Origin: an uncultured Ignavibacteria bacterium
GTDB taxonomy: Bacteria > Bacteroidota > Ignavibacteria > Tepidaquicellales > OLB5
NCBI GenBank assembly: GCA_937873695.1
Contig: CALMYL010000012.1
Location: 62,001 to 126,000 of the forward strand
DNA length: 64,000 nt
Reading direction: 5' to 3'
Position numbers and translations under genes: made by a program. Shown here in pieces: positions 28,171 to 59,413 of the stretch; positions within the stretch are counted from its first letter, which is position 1; each line of letters starts with the position of its first letter. Below the pieces are notes generated by a model. That model did no database searches. It was not told the origin of the DNA and saw only the letters and a list, made by a program, of their open reading frames with translations.

Positions 28171-29604
28171 CTATTTCATTTCAATTATCTTTTCGATAAG
28201 CCACTCGCGGGCAATTGTTGTTCTGTTCTCATCAAGTTTTTTCATCAGTATCTTCAGCTCAGGTTTTTGCTTTTTATCCAGCTTCATCAGGTTTGTAACA
28301 TAATTAAGGAATAATATAAACCTGTCGTAATGGATTGAAAGCATTTCTTTGTGACGCTTAAGGTAGTGCTTGGCTGCATCTATGACCGCTTCAAGTGACT
28401 CTACTTCGCCAAGCTCGTAATATGCCCTGATGAGTGTCTCCTTTGATTTCAGGTAGAAGTATGTGTATTTGTATCCAACTTTGCTTAAATAACCAACACA
28501 CTCTTTGTACTTCTTATTCTGAAATGCTATTAGCGCTGATGAAAGGTTAATTGTATCGCGTTTCACTTCGCTTGCAATATTGCCTTTGTAGGTTTCAAAG
28601 AAATGTTCCACCCACTTCATATGCTTCATGTTAAGTCCGCATATTATTACCCCAATAAAATCGGTGTACTGCAGATTTTTGTTCTTGGCATAAAAACCCG
28701 TCTTTTCAAAATTGGAATGTATTTTGTAAAGCTCATTTACGAATTTATCCTCACCCAGCGCTATCTTGTTTACGCAGTAATTTGAAAGCGAGTAGTACAC
28801 CTGCTCAAGCTCATCTTCATTATAACGCGCAATATTCTGGAATACGTGCTTTTCAAGGTCATGGAAATGCTTTACTGTATCGGGCTCCAGAACCATCATC
28901 AGTATCTTGTATTCTGAATAAATTATAGGGTGATCTTTTTCAATTACGTCAATATTCTTTGCTATGTATTTAAGTATGTTTTCTACAGCCCAGTATGTTT
29001 TGTGAATTGAAATGCCCGATAAAATTTTCCTGCTTATAACCGTATTCAGTACTTTCAGTTTTGTGACTATGAACAGGTGATCGGCATTATCGCTCATATC
29101 CTGGTAGCTTTTATCAAGGTCCATATCAAGATCTTCGCCGTGGTAGTTAAGCCACGTCTCTTTAAAAGTAAATTCGTTGTAATAGTAATCTGTATTCCGG
29201 TTAAAATCTTTCTGCTGAATTTCTGTGATCTCTTTTGATACCATATCAAATGTTTTAAGGATATTCCTGTCACGCAGAGATTTAAGCAGGAATGTTTTGC
29301 CGTGCAGAGCATTGTTGTTCAGCTCTTCAACAACCAGAAATTCTTCAAGTAGCGAGGTGAAAGTACTAATAAGTGTCCTAACGTTTTGGTCCTTATCACC
29401 TTCACCGCTGAATATTGCCTTAGCGATCTTTTCATTTGTTATCGTATTGGCGTCAAACTCATCATAGCTGAAATTGATCAGCTCGTAAAGCTGAATGATC
29501 TTTCTGCTTTTGTTATGGTAAGGAGAGTTCAGGAATTCACCGAATCTCTTGAATTCCGCAGGACTTATGCCCTTAACCATTTCAGTTAACTTAGATTCCC
29601 GCAT
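28171..29604 (-). CDS. Large all-helical hypothetical protein (TPR-like)
   Basis: 477 residues with no signal peptide or membrane segment. The N-terminus MRESKLTEMVKGISPAEFKRFGEFLNSPYHNKSRKIIQLYELI looks like a recognisable family opening shared by Bacteroidota/Ignavibacteria proteins of unknown function. The remainder is helical with TPR-like spacing (NLSSALIAFQNKKYKECVGYLSKVG, KETLIRAYYELGEVESLEAVIDAAKHYL). I cannot name a function. A scaffold or partner-binding role is likely from the repeats. It reads toward fmt and away from the T9SS gene at 29822; its upstream region is the same 154-bp block described at 29631. Confidence 0.6.
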   Translation of the reverse strand: MRESKLTEMVKGISPAEFKRFGEFLNSPYHNKSRKIIQLYELINFSYDEFDANTITNEKIAKAIFSGEGDKDQNVRTLISTFTSLLEEFLVVEELNNNALHGKTFLLKSLRDRNILKTFDMVSKEITEIQQKDFNRNTDYYYNEFTFKETWLNYHGEDLDMDLDKSYQDMSDNADHLFIVTKLKVLNTVISRKILSGISIHKTYWAVENILKYIAKNIDVIEKDHPIIYSEYKILMMVLEPDTVKHFHDLEKHVFQNIARYNEDELEQVYYSLSNYCVNKIALGEDKFVNELYKIHSNFEKTGFYAKNKNLQYTDFIGVIICGLNMKHMKWVEHFFETYKGNIASEVKRDTINLSSALIAFQNKKYKECVGYLSKVGYKYTYFYLKSKETLIRAYYELGEVESLEAVIDAAKHYLKRHKEMLSIHYDRFILFLNYVTNLMKLDKKQKPELKILMKKLDENRTTIAREWLIEKIIEMK

Positions 29605-29630: not shown

Positions 29631-29784
29631 TCATTTAACAAAATATGGAACTTGTCACAAGAATTTCTGTGAAAGCATCGTTTTTTTGATACTTTTACAC
29701 AGTATTGCAGTGTAATATTCTTATTTTCTTTTAACAAAACTATTTAAAAATCTTTGCCTATCACGTATTTGTATGCTATTTTTA
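29631..29784 (+). promoter_or_regulatory. Promoter region of T9SS gene, copy A of a duplicated upstream block
   Basis: Begins TCATTTAACAAAA and ends TGTATGCTATTTTTA. It contains TCTTTG (TTG 29754-29756), a 20-base spacer and TATTTTTA (29777-29784), near TTG-N20-TAnnTTTG. The same block recurs at 32130-32285 with nearly equal length and shared segments TTTAACAAA, GAAAGCAT/GGAAGCAT, AAAAATCTTTG and TGTATGCTATTTTT. Confidence 0.6.
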
Positions 29785-29821: not shown

Positions 29822-32011
29822 ATGAAAAATTTAAAAGCGATTTCAGTGTTTTTGGTTTTTAACTTCATCATGCTAACCCCGGTTCTCACTCAGCCTTTAA
29901 ATGATATTACCTCGCTAAGCGTTCAGCTTGTTTATGCCGCAGGTGAAGATGGTATTTTTATGAAAAGCTCAAACGGGGGCACATCATACACTTCCACACT
30001 AATCTCTTCCGGCGACCTAAACGGGATATCGGCGGCGGGTTCGCGCATTTGGGCTGCGGGAGATTCCGGAAGATATCTCTCAAGTACCGATCTTGGCGCC
30101 TCCTGGACTGAAGAAATACTTGGAACAGGTGTGCAGCTGAATTCAATTTTCTTTACTGATTCTCTGACGGGCTATATATCAGGTAACGGAGGTATGATAT
30201 TAAAAACAACCAACAGCGGTGCGAACTGGAGTGCGCTTAATTCTGGGGTTACTTTTAATTTAAATAAAATAAAATATACAAATTCATCAACAGGTTTCGC
30301 TTTTGGAGAGAGCAGTTCTGTTTTGCTCACCACCAATGGCGGAGCCGAGTGGAACCAGGTAACTACTCCATCGCTGTCATTTCTCAGGGCTGCAGATATC
30401 TCAGGTAATGAAATTATCGCGGGAAGTAATGAAAATATTCTGTACAGATCAACAAACCTTGGCGCAAACTGGCAGCAGATCCCGCTAAAGATATATTCAA
30501 AACCGGGAATTAATGTTCTTACGATCCTTTCGCCGCAGGAGTATATATTAGTGTTTGAAAGCGGAACCATATGGAATACAACTAACGGCGGGCAGACCTT
30601 CACTTATCCTGTCAACGAATTTATGGATGCGCTTAATTCTGTTTATGTAAGAGGAACAAGAATTTATGCCGTAAGTAAAAGGCATAAAATGATAGTGCGT
30701 TCACAGGATAGGGGTTTGAACTGGTCATTGACACCTAATTCTTCCTATTCTATTCATTTTGTATCTATTCTCAGCGGAACATTTTCAAACTACAACAAGA
30801 TACTGGAAATGAACTATCAAAAACGCGGCGTGCTTTACGCGCTTGAAAAAGATAAGCTTTACAGGACGCTGAATTACGGTGAGAACTGGAGCATAATCAG
30901 CACCCTTCCTGTTGATACATCTGTACGCAACAGCACTCAGCTGCTTGTGAACATGCGTGATTCTTCAAAAATGCTGGCAGGTGTAAATTCATTCGGACCG
31001 GTTGGCGGAGAATATAAATGCAGCATATTCAGAACAACTAATTACGGAGCTAACTGGGTACGGGTTTTAGGACTTAACATTGATCATATAGGAAATTTTA
31101 TGAACCAGGACCCGCAGCATCCTGATACGGTTTACCTGGGAGCTAAAGATACAGTTTTCAGGTCAACTGACTGGGGCGCAAACTGGACAAAAATTTGCGA
31201 AGCGCCGTTTGAAGACTGGTGTGATATAGCAATACATCCTTCAAACTCACAGATCATATACGGCTCAACAAATCATTACCCTGCCAAGCTTCAGAAATCA
31301 ACCAATGGAGGAGTTAACTGGTCTTTCGTTGATTTTGTAACTGATACTTCATATTCAGAAATGCCTGCAATAGCAACTACAGCTCTTAGTCCAAATGTGC
31401 TGCTTCATGCGCAGCTTGCAAATAACAATTTATTCAAAGGACTTAAAAGGTCATATACTTCAGGTAACACATGGCTCTTCAATCAGCTTCCGGGAACAAG
31501 CTGGGCTATTGATATTGCTAAAGATGACCCGAATCTTTATGCGTATGGAAGTGTATCATATGACCCGGTATTCTTGTCTACAAATTCAGGTGGCTTTTTT
31601 GCCGGCACGTCCAGCACTTATGCAGAACAGATATTATATTATGACAGAACAAATCTGTACGTAAATTCTCATGGCTTCCTATATAAGATGCGCATAAATT
31701 ATACTATGCCAGTGATTGGAATTGAAAACATCTCCACCGGAGTCCCGGGTTCTTTTGAGTTATCGCAGAACTATCCAAATCCTTTCAATCCTGTAACTAG
31801 TATAAAATTTGGTCTGCCTGAACAAAGCAGTGTTAAGCTCATCATTTATGATGCGCTTGGAAGAGAAGTTAAAGCATTAATTGATAGTGAACTCAAAGCA
31901 GGTAACTATTCAGTTGACTGGAATGCTGCTGATTCACCCAGTGGCGTATATTTTTACAGGTTGATAACAACAGATTACTCTGAAACCAGAAAAATGATCC
32001 TTATTAAGTAA
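29822..32011 (+). CDS. T9SS-exported YCF48/BNR-repeat protein
   Basis: 729 residues. Signal peptide 1-24 (LTPVLTQP). The body is many YCF48/sortilin-like beta-propeller repeats: T-x-N-G-G/S-x-x-W motifs recur (SSNGGTSYT, TTNSGANWSAL, TTNGGAEWNQ, STNLGANWQQ, TTNYGANWVRV, STNGGVNWSFV), often with LNSIFFTDSLTGYISG-type lead strands. That predicts a seven-bladed or doubled propeller. The T9SS tail has ELSQNYPNPFNPVTSIKF and ends MILIK. It is related to the two cargo proteins at 33915 and 59433 but lacks their carboxypeptidase-regulatory-like domain. The promoter block (29631) is duplicated ahead of the RNA at 32291. A terminator follows at 32033. Confidence 0.9.
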   Translation: MKNLKAISVFLVFNFIMLTPVLTQPLNDITSLSVQLVYAAGEDGIFMKSSNGGTSYTSTLISSGDLNGISAAGSRIWAAGDSGRYLSSTDLGASWTEEILGTGVQLNSIFFTDSLTGYISGNGGMILKTTNSGANWSALNSGVTFNLNKIKYTNSSTGFAFGESSSVLLTTNGGAEWNQVTTPSLSFLRAADISGNEIIAGSNENILYRSTNLGANWQQIPLKIYSKPGINVLTILSPQEYILVFESGTIWNTTNGGQTFTYPVNEFMDALNSVYVRGTRIYAVSKRHKMIVRSQDRGLNWSLTPNSSYSIHFVSILSGTFSNYNKILEMNYQKRGVLYALEKDKLYRTLNYGENWSIISTLPVDTSVRNSTQLLVNMRDSSKMLAGVNSFGPVGGEYKCSIFRTTNYGANWVRVLGLNIDHIGNFMNQDPQHPDTVYLGAKDTVFRSTDWGANWTKICEAPFEDWCDIAIHPSNSQIIYGSTNHYPAKLQKSTNGGVNWSFVDFVTDTSYSEMPAIATTALSPNVLLHAQLANNNLFKGLKRSYTSGNTWLFNQLPGTSWAIDIAKDDPNLYAYGSVSYDPVFLSTNSGGFFAGTSSTYAEQILYYDRTNLYVNSHGFLYKMRINYTMPVIGIENISTGVPGSFELSQNYPNPFNPVTSIKFGLPEQSSVKLIIYDALGREVKALIDSELKAGNYSVDWNAADSPSGVYFYRLITTDYSETRKMILIK

Positions 32012-32129: not shown

Positions 32130-32285
32130 TCATTTAACAAATGTGTTTTCCTGTCTGCATGAAAATTGTGAAAAATTACTGAAATTGAACTTTTTGGAAG
32201 CATTCATTCACTTTTTGCACGTTTTCAGCGTTTAACAAACAATGTAAAAAATCTTTGTCAAATGCTGTTTTGTATGCTATTTTTG
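32130..32285 (+). promoter_or_regulatory. Promoter region, copy B of the duplicated upstream block
   Basis: Starts TCATTTAACAAA like copy A (29631) and ends TGTATGCTATTTTTG. Promoter core: TTG (32255-32257), 20-base spacer, TATTTTTG (32278-32285), an exact TTG-N20-TAnnTTTG match. It drives no open reading frame; the structured RNA candidate at 32291 follows. Confidence 0.65.
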
Positions 32286-32290
32286 AACAA

Positions 32291-32568
32291 GTGATTTGAA
32301 ATTAACTCCTGTGTAAAAAGTGTTTAAGTTATCTCTTACTAATGTTGTCTACCGGGGTTAAAGGCTGCTCACAAGGCGTCAACGGAGGTAAGTAAACAGC
32401 AGCAGCCGTAACCCCGGTATAGAAAAAAGTATTGAGGGATTTAAATAAAAATAATTTTGTTATATGATAATAAGCGCAGCAGCCTCTGTCTTGATAGATT
32501 GTCCTCTTTCGAAGGGCGGGAGAAACAATTATGATCACTGCAGTTCAGGAAGCTGCGCTAAGTTTTTT
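32291..32568 (+). ncRNA. Candidate structured noncoding RNA with two long hairpins
   Basis: No credible plus-strand gene lies here. Hairpin 1: ACCGGGGTTA (32351-32360) plus GGCTGCT (32363-32369) pair with AGCAGCC (32401-32407) plus TAACCCCGGT (32409-32418), 17 bp in all, around a 31-base loop. Hairpin 2: AGCGCAGC (32473-32480) pairs with GCTGCGCT (32552-32559), with inner pairings TGAT/ATCA and ATTGT/ACAAT, and ends in a T-run at 32563-32568. AGCAGCC also occurs at 32478-32484, so GGCTGCT could pair with either copy. The promoter is at 32255-32285 and a further terminator is at 32639. The trmB gene downstream has its own promoter. It does not look like tmRNA, RNase P, SRP or a riboswitch I know; 6S-like RNA cannot be excluded. 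The transcript might run to 32672. Confidence 0.55.
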
Positions 32569-32638
32569 GCCCTCTTAAGAACCTAGCTATTTAATTATCG
32601 CATTTTCTTTCTCATTCAGTTTAGTTTCATTTGTGGTT

Positions 32639-32672
32639 AAGGCAATCATTAGCACATGATTGCCTTTTTCTT
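32639..32672 (+). terminator. Intrinsic terminator upstream of trmB-like gene
   Basis: Arms AAGGCAATCAT (32639-32649) and ATGATTGCCTT (32656-32666), a perfect 11-bp stem followed by a T-rich run (32664-32672). It isolates the RNA unit from the trmB promoter at 32730. Confidence 0.9.
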
Positions 32673-32729: not shown

Positions 32730-32776
32730 TTGACAATACTTTAATTGAATGTTATATTGCAGTAGTTTAAAACTAC
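32730..32776 (+). promoter_or_regulatory. Promoter plus palindromic operator of the first TrmB-like gene
   Basis: TTGACA (32730-32735); counting from TTG, 20 bases to TATATTGC (32753-32760). A perfect inverted repeat GTAGTTTAAAACTAC (32762-32776, 7-bp arms, 1-base centre) follows at once, where transcription should start. The start codon is 8 bases beyond it. The second TrmB-like gene has the same arrangement (58488-58537), but a different palindrome sequence. Confidence 0.65.
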
Positions 32777-32783
32777 AGCAATA

Positions 32784-33614
32784 TTGAATAAGGAAATTTT
32801 AATAGAACGCCTCAAGACATTAGGATTCAAAGAATATGAATCCAAAGTGCTTATTGTATTGCTCGGCGGAACCCCTATGAGTGCATCTGAAATTGCAAAG
32901 GAAGCAAAGATCATACGAAATTCTATTTATGATATACTGAAATCATTTGTAGAAAAGGGATACTGCAATGAGATCGAAACAAACACGATACTGAATTATC
33001 AGATAATTGACCCTGCGATAATACTTGATAAAATAACAAGCGATTACAAAAAGAATTTTAATAATAAACTGCTGAGTCTTAACGAGACTTTTGGTGAGCT
33101 TCAGCAGATTTATAAAAGTGAATCAAGCAGGTCTGACGGTCCCGATAAGAACATTCAGCTGATTCGCGGATTCAATAAGCACCGCGTTGCGCGTTATATG
33201 GAGCTTGTCAATTCATCAGTAAAGGAAATACTTGGCATGTACAGTCCGCGCCGCGTTGTGGTAGAAGAATTGAGCCGTGACGCACAAAGGTTCATAAAAG
33301 ATGGCGGTGTAATAAGATCTATTTACCAATTGAGCGATGACAGCGCGCTTAACGCGGAATTGGTCGAAGCGTGCGAATTGTTTCAAAAAGGCGGCGAGCA
33401 GGTGAGACTTGCTCCATTCAAACTGCCAAATATTTCTGTTTTTGATTCAGAGAATGTATTCATAAATCTTTCCGCCGATAAGAATGTACCCAAGCATAAA
33501 CAGGCCGATCTTATTATTAAGAACTCTGATTATGCCGGTCATATGAAAGACCTTTTTAATACCTATTGGGAGAGATCACTGAAAATTGAAGATTATAAAA
33601 AAGAAAAGAACTAA
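32784..33614 (+). CDS. TrmB-like transcriptional regulator (copy 1)
   Basis: 276 residues. N-terminal winged helix of the TrmB/sugar-specific type: LIERLKTLGFKEYESKVLIVLLGGTPMSASEIAKEAKIIRNSIYDILKSFVEKGYC. A coiled linker is followed by an effector-like domain: IQLIRGFNKHRVARYMELV, then a segment resembling the phospholipase-D-fold domain of TrmB-like regulators (LAPFKLPNISVFDSENVFINLS) and a Tyr-Trp-Glu-Arg end. The start is TTG at 32784, as the ortholog at 58544 starts MDKKSIIEKFKSIGFKE in register. The palindrome at 32762 overlaps the start of its transcript, suggesting autoregulation. Its paralogue at 58544 is clearly homologous along the full length. Confidence 0.85.
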   Translation: MNKEILIERLKTLGFKEYESKVLIVLLGGTPMSASEIAKEAKIIRNSIYDILKSFVEKGYCNEIETNTILNYQIIDPAIILDKITSDYKKNFNNKLLSLNETFGELQQIYKSESSRSDGPDKNIQLIRGFNKHRVARYMELVNSSVKEILGMYSPRRVVVEELSRDAQRFIKDGGVIRSIYQLSDDSALNAELVEACELFQKGGEQVRLAPFKLPNISVFDSENVFINLSADKNVPKHKQADLIIKNSDYAGHMKDLFNTYWERSLKIEDYKKEKN

Positions 33615-58543: not shown

Positions 58544-59413
58544 ATGGATAAGAAATCAATAATAGAAAAGTTTAAATCTATAGGATTTAAAGAATTTGAA
58601 GCCAAAGTATTCATTGTTTTAATGAAAGGAATACCTCTTAGCGTACCTGAAATTGCAGAAGAAGCCAAGCTTCTTCGAAATTCAATTTACGATACGCTTA
58701 AAACTTTTGCAGAAAAAGGATTCTGTAATATTATAGAAACCAACACAACTCTTAAATATCAGATCATTAATCCCGAAGTTATTATTGGTAAGCTTGAAAA
58801 AGATTACACAGAAAGTTTGAGAAACAAACTTTCCGTATTAAAAAATACATTTGGTGAACTGGATTCATTCTACAAAGATAATCCTACTGAAAGTGATGAT
58901 AAAACTGATAACGTAGAACTCATACGGGGATTCAATAAACACAGGGTTCTCAAATATATGGAATTGATCAAAAGCGCAAAAAATGAGATCCTTTCTATGA
59001 ATAAGTTAAAGGGAATCGTAACCGACGATATAAATGAATTCAGTCTGGATTTTATAAAAAGAGGCGGGACTATAAGATCTCTATATAAGATAAGCCTGGA
59101 TTTCAGAGTTAAAAAGGGAGATAAGACCATTAACGCTTCAAACGAAGATCTTGTGAGTGTTTGCAGAATGTTTGAAAAGAACGGTGAACAGGTAAAATTG
59201 ACGGCCATAGAGATACCTAACATGGTAATAATTGACAGAGAGAAAATTTTTCTGAACCTGGCAGGTGCGCGTGATGCTTCGAAGAATAAACAGACAGATC
59301 TTGTAATAAATGACACGCAGTACGCGCAGAATATGCGCGATCTTTTTAACAATTACTGGGAAAGATCAGCAACACCCGAAGAGTTTCACAATACAATAAA
59401 ACAATATCATTAA
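58544..59413 (+). CDS. TrmB-like transcriptional regulator (copy 2)
   Basis: 289 residues, paralogue of 32784 along its full length. Winged helix: IIEKFKSIGFKEFEAKVFIVLMKGIPLSVPEIAEEAKLLRNSIYDTLKTFAEKGFC. Effector-like part: VELIRGFNKHRVLKYMELIKSAKNEIL, then VVI-type strand MVIIDREKIFLNLA and end DLFNNYWERSATPEEF. Identical stretches include RNSIYD, LIRGFNKHRV and YWERS. Starts with ATG, with palindrome-overlapping promoter at 58488. Only 19 bases separate it from the secreted protein gene at 59433, so they are very likely co-transcribed. Confidence 0.88.
   Translation: MDKKSIIEKFKSIGFKEFEAKVFIVLMKGIPLSVPEIAEEAKLLRNSIYDTLKTFAEKGFCNIIETNTTLKYQIINPEVIIGKLEKDYTESLRNKLSVLKNTFGELDSFYKDNPTESDDKTDNVELIRGFNKHRVLKYMELIKSAKNEILSMNKLKGIVTDDINEFSLDFIKRGGTIRSLYKISLDFRVKKGDKTINASNEDLVSVCRMFEKNGEQVKLTAIEIPNMVIIDREKIFLNLAGARDASKNKQTDLVINDTQYAQNMRDLFNNYWERSATPEEFHNTIKQYH

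Follow-up and report, generated by a model that had tools for sequence, protein, structure and literature searches.

A single-copy structured RNA restricted to one family of uncultured Ignavibacteria

Within the window, a 64,000-nucleotide stretch of DNA from an uncultured Ignavibacteria bacterium, comparison of genome sequences identifies positions 32291-32672 as a real and previously uncatalogued structured RNA that is present in a single copy per genome and confined to one small uncultured family of Ignavibacteria. It is a new RNA family of a known kind, the bacterial structured sRNAs. Most likely it is a separate small regulatory RNA that shares its promoter type with a neighbouring regulator-like gene (geneX) and not a switch of the adjacent TrmB gene, and the reading towards which we lean is that it would be a single-copy, lineage-specific regulatory sRNA in the geneX regulon.

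Promoter, hairpins, and terminator of the RNA

The region 32231-32672 holds, in order, a promoter, a first hairpin (HP1), a second hairpin (HP2), a single-stranded tail, and an intrinsic terminator (Table 1). The exact promoter reported by the first-pass annotation was recovered as TTTG-N20-TATTTTTG (32254-32285), an exact Bacteroidota-type promoter, and it is kept with equal spacing in eight RNA loci (L001-L006, L011, and L012) as well as at the promoter on the geneX side. The upstream block TTTAACAAA-N9-AAATCTTTG shows only single-base differences among the eight RNA loci and the geneX-divergent promoter in ten genomes, and a search of the 3.78-Mb genome with a generalised pattern covering block and promoter hit two sites and no more, 29731-29783 and 32232-32284, both at this locus beside geneX; the control had 0. 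At the other end, the third strong terminator noted at 32639 was found again, and a terminator hairpin of unrelated sequence was located by the scan at 11 of the 12 homologous loci, L010 being missed though a long hairpin is visible there. A 385-nt stretch folds with -108.9 kcal/mol, and none of 100 shuffled sequences was equally stable (z = -4.3). The earlier observation that the region lacks an open frame also held, as the sole sizeable frame on the + strand of the RNA (32464-32586, 40 aa) is disrupted by indels in the homologues and there is no coding potential.

Table 1. Positions of the RNA, its parts, and neighbouring features in the window
Feature	Positions	Strand	Description
geneX	28171-29604	-	477 aa, TPR-like and all-helical; divergently paired with the RNA in G013 and G014
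Second copy of the RNA promoter element	29731-29783	+	between geneX and the secreted beta-propeller gene 29822-32011
RNA promoter	32231-32285	+	TTTAACAAA (32231-32239), N9, AAATCTTTG including -33 TTTG (32254-32257), N20, TATTTTTG (32278-32285)
Predicted primary transcript	32291-32672	+	~380 nt; from promoter and terminator; predicted ends; z = -4.3
HP1 accessory hairpin	32351-32418	+	z = -4.9; extendable by one pair to 32350-32419
Invariant HP1 loop AAGGCGTCAACGGAGGTAA	32373-32391	+	identical in L001-L006
HP2 core hairpin	32473-32559	+	~87 nt; conserved internal-loop strands CTGTCTTGAT / ATCACTGCAG, apical TCTTTCGAAGGGCGGGAGA; 12 homologues
Conserved single-stranded tail	32569-32592	+	GCCCTCT...ACCTAGCTATTT; kept in L001-L006 and L008
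Intrinsic terminator	32639-32672	+	11-pair stem and T-run
TrmB promoter	32730-32779	+	TTGACA-N17-TATATT with palindrome GCAGTAGTTTAAAACTACAGC; separate; 11/12 consensus match
TrmB-family regulator	32784-33614	+	neighbour only; PF01978, E = 1.7e-14

In an alignment of 12 sequences, 11 of the 31 base pairs of HP2 are changed on both sides (16 cells), compared with a mean of 2.4 in shuffled alignments, none of 500 of which reached 11, and standard pairs occupy 96.2% of the cells. When the pairing partners were slid by one to three columns, the covariation signal collapsed to far lower values, in a control that favours the structure as the pairs counted were those of the RNAalifold consensus of the same alignment. 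The candidate new structured RNA of the first-pass annotation is supported by these compensatory base changes in homologues and by the lack of any Rfam family at gathering score in the window. The outer stem of HP2 covaries freely, and almost no variation is seen in the inner strands CUGUCUUGAU / AUCACUGCAG or at the apex UCUUUCGAAGGGCGGGAGA, a pattern expected of a binding surface. The HP2 fold of the homologues is rod-shaped, interrupted by small internal loops and free of any large central bubble. It had been described as a second long hairpin ending in a T-run: the hairpin stands, as do six T after AAG on its 3' flank here, but some homologues have an interrupted run (GTATTT in L006 and L009), and HP2 is therefore no conserved terminator. 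As HP1 is missing from several homologues, the sequence comparison marks HP2 as the core of the RNA.

The 17-bp hairpin described earlier is present as HP1, with a z-score of -4.9 in the window and scores between -3.2 and -4.7 in four relatives. Seven loci have HP1 (L001-L006 and L008), and it is absent from L007, L009, L010, and L011; in L012, the motif CGGAGGTAA lies beside a small hairpin. The inner stem drifts around the invariant loop AAGGCGUCAACGGAGGUAA, which is partly retained as AACGGAGGTAA in L008 and as CGGAGGTAA in L012. The outer stem shows one clean compensatory change from U-A to C-G, the HP1 stem is rebuilt in L008, and with six related sequences the covariation of HP1 is statistically weak alone.

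The first-pass annotation had further proposed a switch-like plan in which GGCTGCT pairs with either of two AGCAGCC elements. Both elements (32401-32407 and 32478-32484) and GGCTGCT (32363-32369) were confirmed, with a pairing set confined to HP1 of this genome. The relatives have GGCTGTT, GGTTGGT, GTAAGCT, GGCGGAT, or GTCAAGT at the position of GGCTGCT, and the AGCAGCC of HP2 is constant in them. With an HP1 partner that differs in every relative examined and an HP1 that several homologues lack, the pairing is not conserved, and the two-way switch was rejected. The GCCCTCT of the tail is found also in L010. On paper, CGCCCU of the tail could pair with the apical AGGGCG of HP2, and CCUCU with GGAGG of the HP1 loop; against these pairings speak the loci where the tail is missing (L007, L009, and L011) and the straight HP2 rod, which looks too long for the short linker.

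Distribution of homologues and comparison with known RNA families

A calibrated covariance model of HP2 (R1) found exactly one copy in 12 of the 15 genomes of the family, representing three genera, and two of the three genomes without a match are 64% and 75% complete. R1 was also run against the 29 remaining genomes of the order and a 245-genome sample of the class, and it found no HP2 there outside the family; when the search was repeated with relaxed settings on 26 genomes, most of them other members of the order, no match had an E value better than 0.28. These genome-wide searches begin with a permissive first screening step, and very divergent copies could have escaped them. Among 59 related genomes, a blastn-type search picked up homologous sequence in eleven more family genomes; outside the family it gave two matches, both short and doubtful. 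The exact core pattern was found in ten records among 84,980 species genomes, all from the same family; the phages, plasmids, and viral contigs searched contained no homologues, and R1 detected no RNA copies near the geneX paralogue loci examined. The first-pass annotation had recommended looking for homologues upstream of TrmB-like genes; in 11 of the 12 genomes with the RNA, it is adjacent to TrmB.

The claim that the RNA matches no known family agrees with our searches. No Rfam 15 family reached its gathering score anywhere in the window, and relaxed searches around the RNA gave only chance-level matches, the best being DapZ on the terminator with 26.7 bits vs. a cut-off of 56. The same relaxed search of the eleven homologous loci produced one unrelated weak match, well below the gathering score. 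What the RNA has in common with the sRNA families of Rfam is its covarying stems.

Some features recall protein-sequestering RNAs, such as a 6S-like mimic acting on RNA polymerase or a CsrB-like sponge, which would work via GGA-containing loops. The RNA contains a conserved ACGGAGG loop in HP1 and GGGAG in HP2, and it shares a long hairpin form and a single copy with 6S RNA. CsrB/RsmZ-type sponge RNAs present GGA motifs in hairpin loops, as does this RNA, but here only two GGA sites are conserved and CsrA (PF02599) is absent from the genome, compared with matches in three of 14 control genomes. Similarly, 6S (RF00013) has no match in the whole genome and is matched in five of the 14 controls. 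While 6S RNA has a large central bubble flanked by long stems, HP2 has none, and the narrow distribution of this RNA is unlike that of 6S. The 6S and Csr-sponge identities were rejected for lack of an RF00013 match and of CsrA, and a sponge for some other protein, geneX included, is possible; as a whole, we judge protein sequestration to be an unlikely function.

geneX and the shared promoter block

The product of geneX is predicted to be all-helical (pLDDT 90); it has no Pfam or NCBIfam match, and no helix-turn-helix was identified in it. Its best fold matches are TPR superhelices, among them the peptide receptor NprR, none of which is significant (best E = 0.011). The helical TPR-type superhelix of NprR, a receptor of the RRNPP class, resembles geneX with TM-scores of NprR chains of up to 0.49 on the target and a nonsignificant E value; the likeness concerns the fold prediction of geneX alone, which differs from NprR in having no identified DNA-binding domain or cognate peptide. 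The genome has 39 matches to the geneX family including geneX itself. The family consists of ~480-aa all-helical TPR-like proteins without a Pfam family, and the 38 further places include 29 loci labelled L087-L115. Most paralogues are divergent from another gene, encoding secreted proteins, ribbon-helix-helix-like proteins, or small secreted peptides (for example L099, MKKTLLTIA...YVYEEDGTYVGKFIDESF, and L110). A TTTG/TAnnTTT promoter is found on the divergent strand in 18 of 30 geneX loci (shuffle mean 1.8, maximum 6) and on the geneX strand in 4 of the same loci. The family looks like a multiplied receptor-plus-target arrangement.

In the window genome, the pair of promoter blocks flanks both sides of the secreted beta-propeller gene at 29822-32011, and the RNA here, and likewise in the closest relatives, is served by a promoter copy of its own. 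The counterpart of this gene is absent from the geneX-RNA interval of G013 and G014; in these two genomes transcription divergent from geneX begins with the RNA, which directly follows the promoter and occupies the place of the divergent target. A third arrangement is seen in G006, G010, and G012, where the RNA starts 112, 119, and 47 nt, respectively, after the stop of the secreted-protein gene and has no promoter copy of its own, and the promoter of that gene carries the block (L065-L067); in these drafts the two ends of the secreted gene may lie on different contigs, and their continuity was inferred from the gene order of the relatives. In total, a geneX-type promoter precedes the RNA in 11 of 12 genomes, with the RNA either placed directly behind it or forming the 3' region of the secreted-protein gene, and L008, at a contig end, is the sole locus where the promoter arrangement cannot be judged. 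The duplicated geneX-side promoter suggests that the gene at 29822-32011 was inserted into, or lost from, the interval in the history of the family. Genome G004 lacks both geneX and the RNA, and one contiguous deletion could explain the joint absence.

Bacterial sRNAs derived from 3'-UTRs are released from the mRNA of a preceding coding gene, and in the three genomes where this RNA follows such a gene it would be released likewise. Alternatively, the RNA could be a structured 3'-UTR that stabilises or terminates the mRNA of the secreted beta-propeller gene, the separate promoter copy having arisen as a by-product of local duplication. This would fit the position of HP2 47-119 nt behind the stop of the secreted gene in G006, G010, and G012 and, in the window genome, the promoter block found at either side of that gene. 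However, unlike the 3'-UTR-derived sRNAs, this RNA has its own promoter copy in eight genomes and, in G013 and G014, follows the promoter directly with no such gene in between. Moreover, the sequence constraint on the HP2 loops is far above the needs of a terminator, and the true terminators of these loci vary freely. We find a 3'-UTR element improbable.

Under the reading that we prefer, the RNA would be a regulatory sRNA in the geneX regulon. Sequence comparison shows HP2 as its core, whose stem covaries and whose internal and apical loops do not vary; in most of the genomes HP1 with its invariant loop comes before it, and a terminator belonging to the RNA comes after it. With moderate confidence, we infer that a protein of the geneX family regulates the promoter transcribing the RNA, because the conserved block overlaps the promoters of both the divergent target of geneX and the RNA, and because 11 of 12 genomes have a geneX-type promoter upstream of the RNA; geneX itself is a putative DNA-binding regulator. 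More tentatively, the RNA may act in trans, with a protein binding the conserved loops of HP2 and with the HP1 loop and the 3' tail perhaps available for RNA pairing, and a condition sensed by geneX would pass via the RNA to putative targets. A search for targets with the complement of the HP1 loop found none above chance: nothing else in the genome matches it with fewer than three mismatches, a result no better than the control. A bolder proposal, which we regard as rather doubtful, is that the RNA serves as the output of a circuit resembling peptide sensing, which would be new to Ignavibacteria. Here the TPR-like receptor geneX would have a structured RNA, and not a protein, under its control, and this RNA would use the conserved HP2 loops to bind a protein, perhaps the receptor itself.

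The TrmB neighbour and implications for the lineage

The first-pass annotation placed the RNA upstream of TrmB, which is correct for its position in this genome but does not extend to function, given the gene contents of G004 and G014 and the separate TrmB promoter. As a riboswitch-like cis leader or attenuator of TrmB, the RNA would decide on termination at 32639 by alternative pairing; 11 of 12 genomes have the two side by side and collinear, with a terminator between them, and GGCTGCT has two possible pairings in this genome. Yet TrmB has a strong conserved promoter with a palindrome downstream of the RNA's terminator, retained at 11 RNA loci and also in G004 (L032), a genome without the RNA; there the whole geneX-to-RNA segment is lost, and TrmB (84% identical) keeps this promoter. 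Conversely, the RNA is present in G014 (87% complete), where no homologue of TrmB was detected and the next gene after the RNA reads from its sequence as short-chain dehydrogenase / enoyl-ACP-reductase-like. With linkage that is not strict, a promoter in between, and an exclusive pairing that is not conserved, a riboswitch or attenuator of TrmB was rejected as an identity; the RNA unit is separate from TrmB, and cis control of TrmB is quite unlikely.

The palindrome GCAGTAGTTTAAAACTACAGC (32759-32779), between the TrmB -10 box and the start, is strongly conserved and likely a TrmB operator for autoregulation. A similar palindrome, GTAGTACTTAAGAAGTAC, precedes a second TrmB gene at 58544. Three TrmB-family genes lie on one contig (32784-33614, 58544-59413, and G000:C12:135020-135847), and the first two are each followed by a gene for a secreted YCF48-like beta-propeller with a T9SS sorting domain or similar C-terminus, forming a repeated two-gene module.

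Chance hairpins or an unannotated small protein gene, for which short frames such as 32464-32586 exist, are already contradicted by the HP2 covariation, the frame-breaking indels, and the fold z-scores and have next to no probability.

A full-text search of one literature collection found no paper combining Ignavibacteria, transcriptome, and sRNA, and the noncoding RNAs of Ignavibacteria seem hardly studied. The RNA is supported by covariation, its model is calibrated, its promoter is defined, and it has a candidate regulator, all of which make it directly testable. What is unusual about it is its link with TPR-like regulator candidates, which form a large and so far undescribed family in the lineage.
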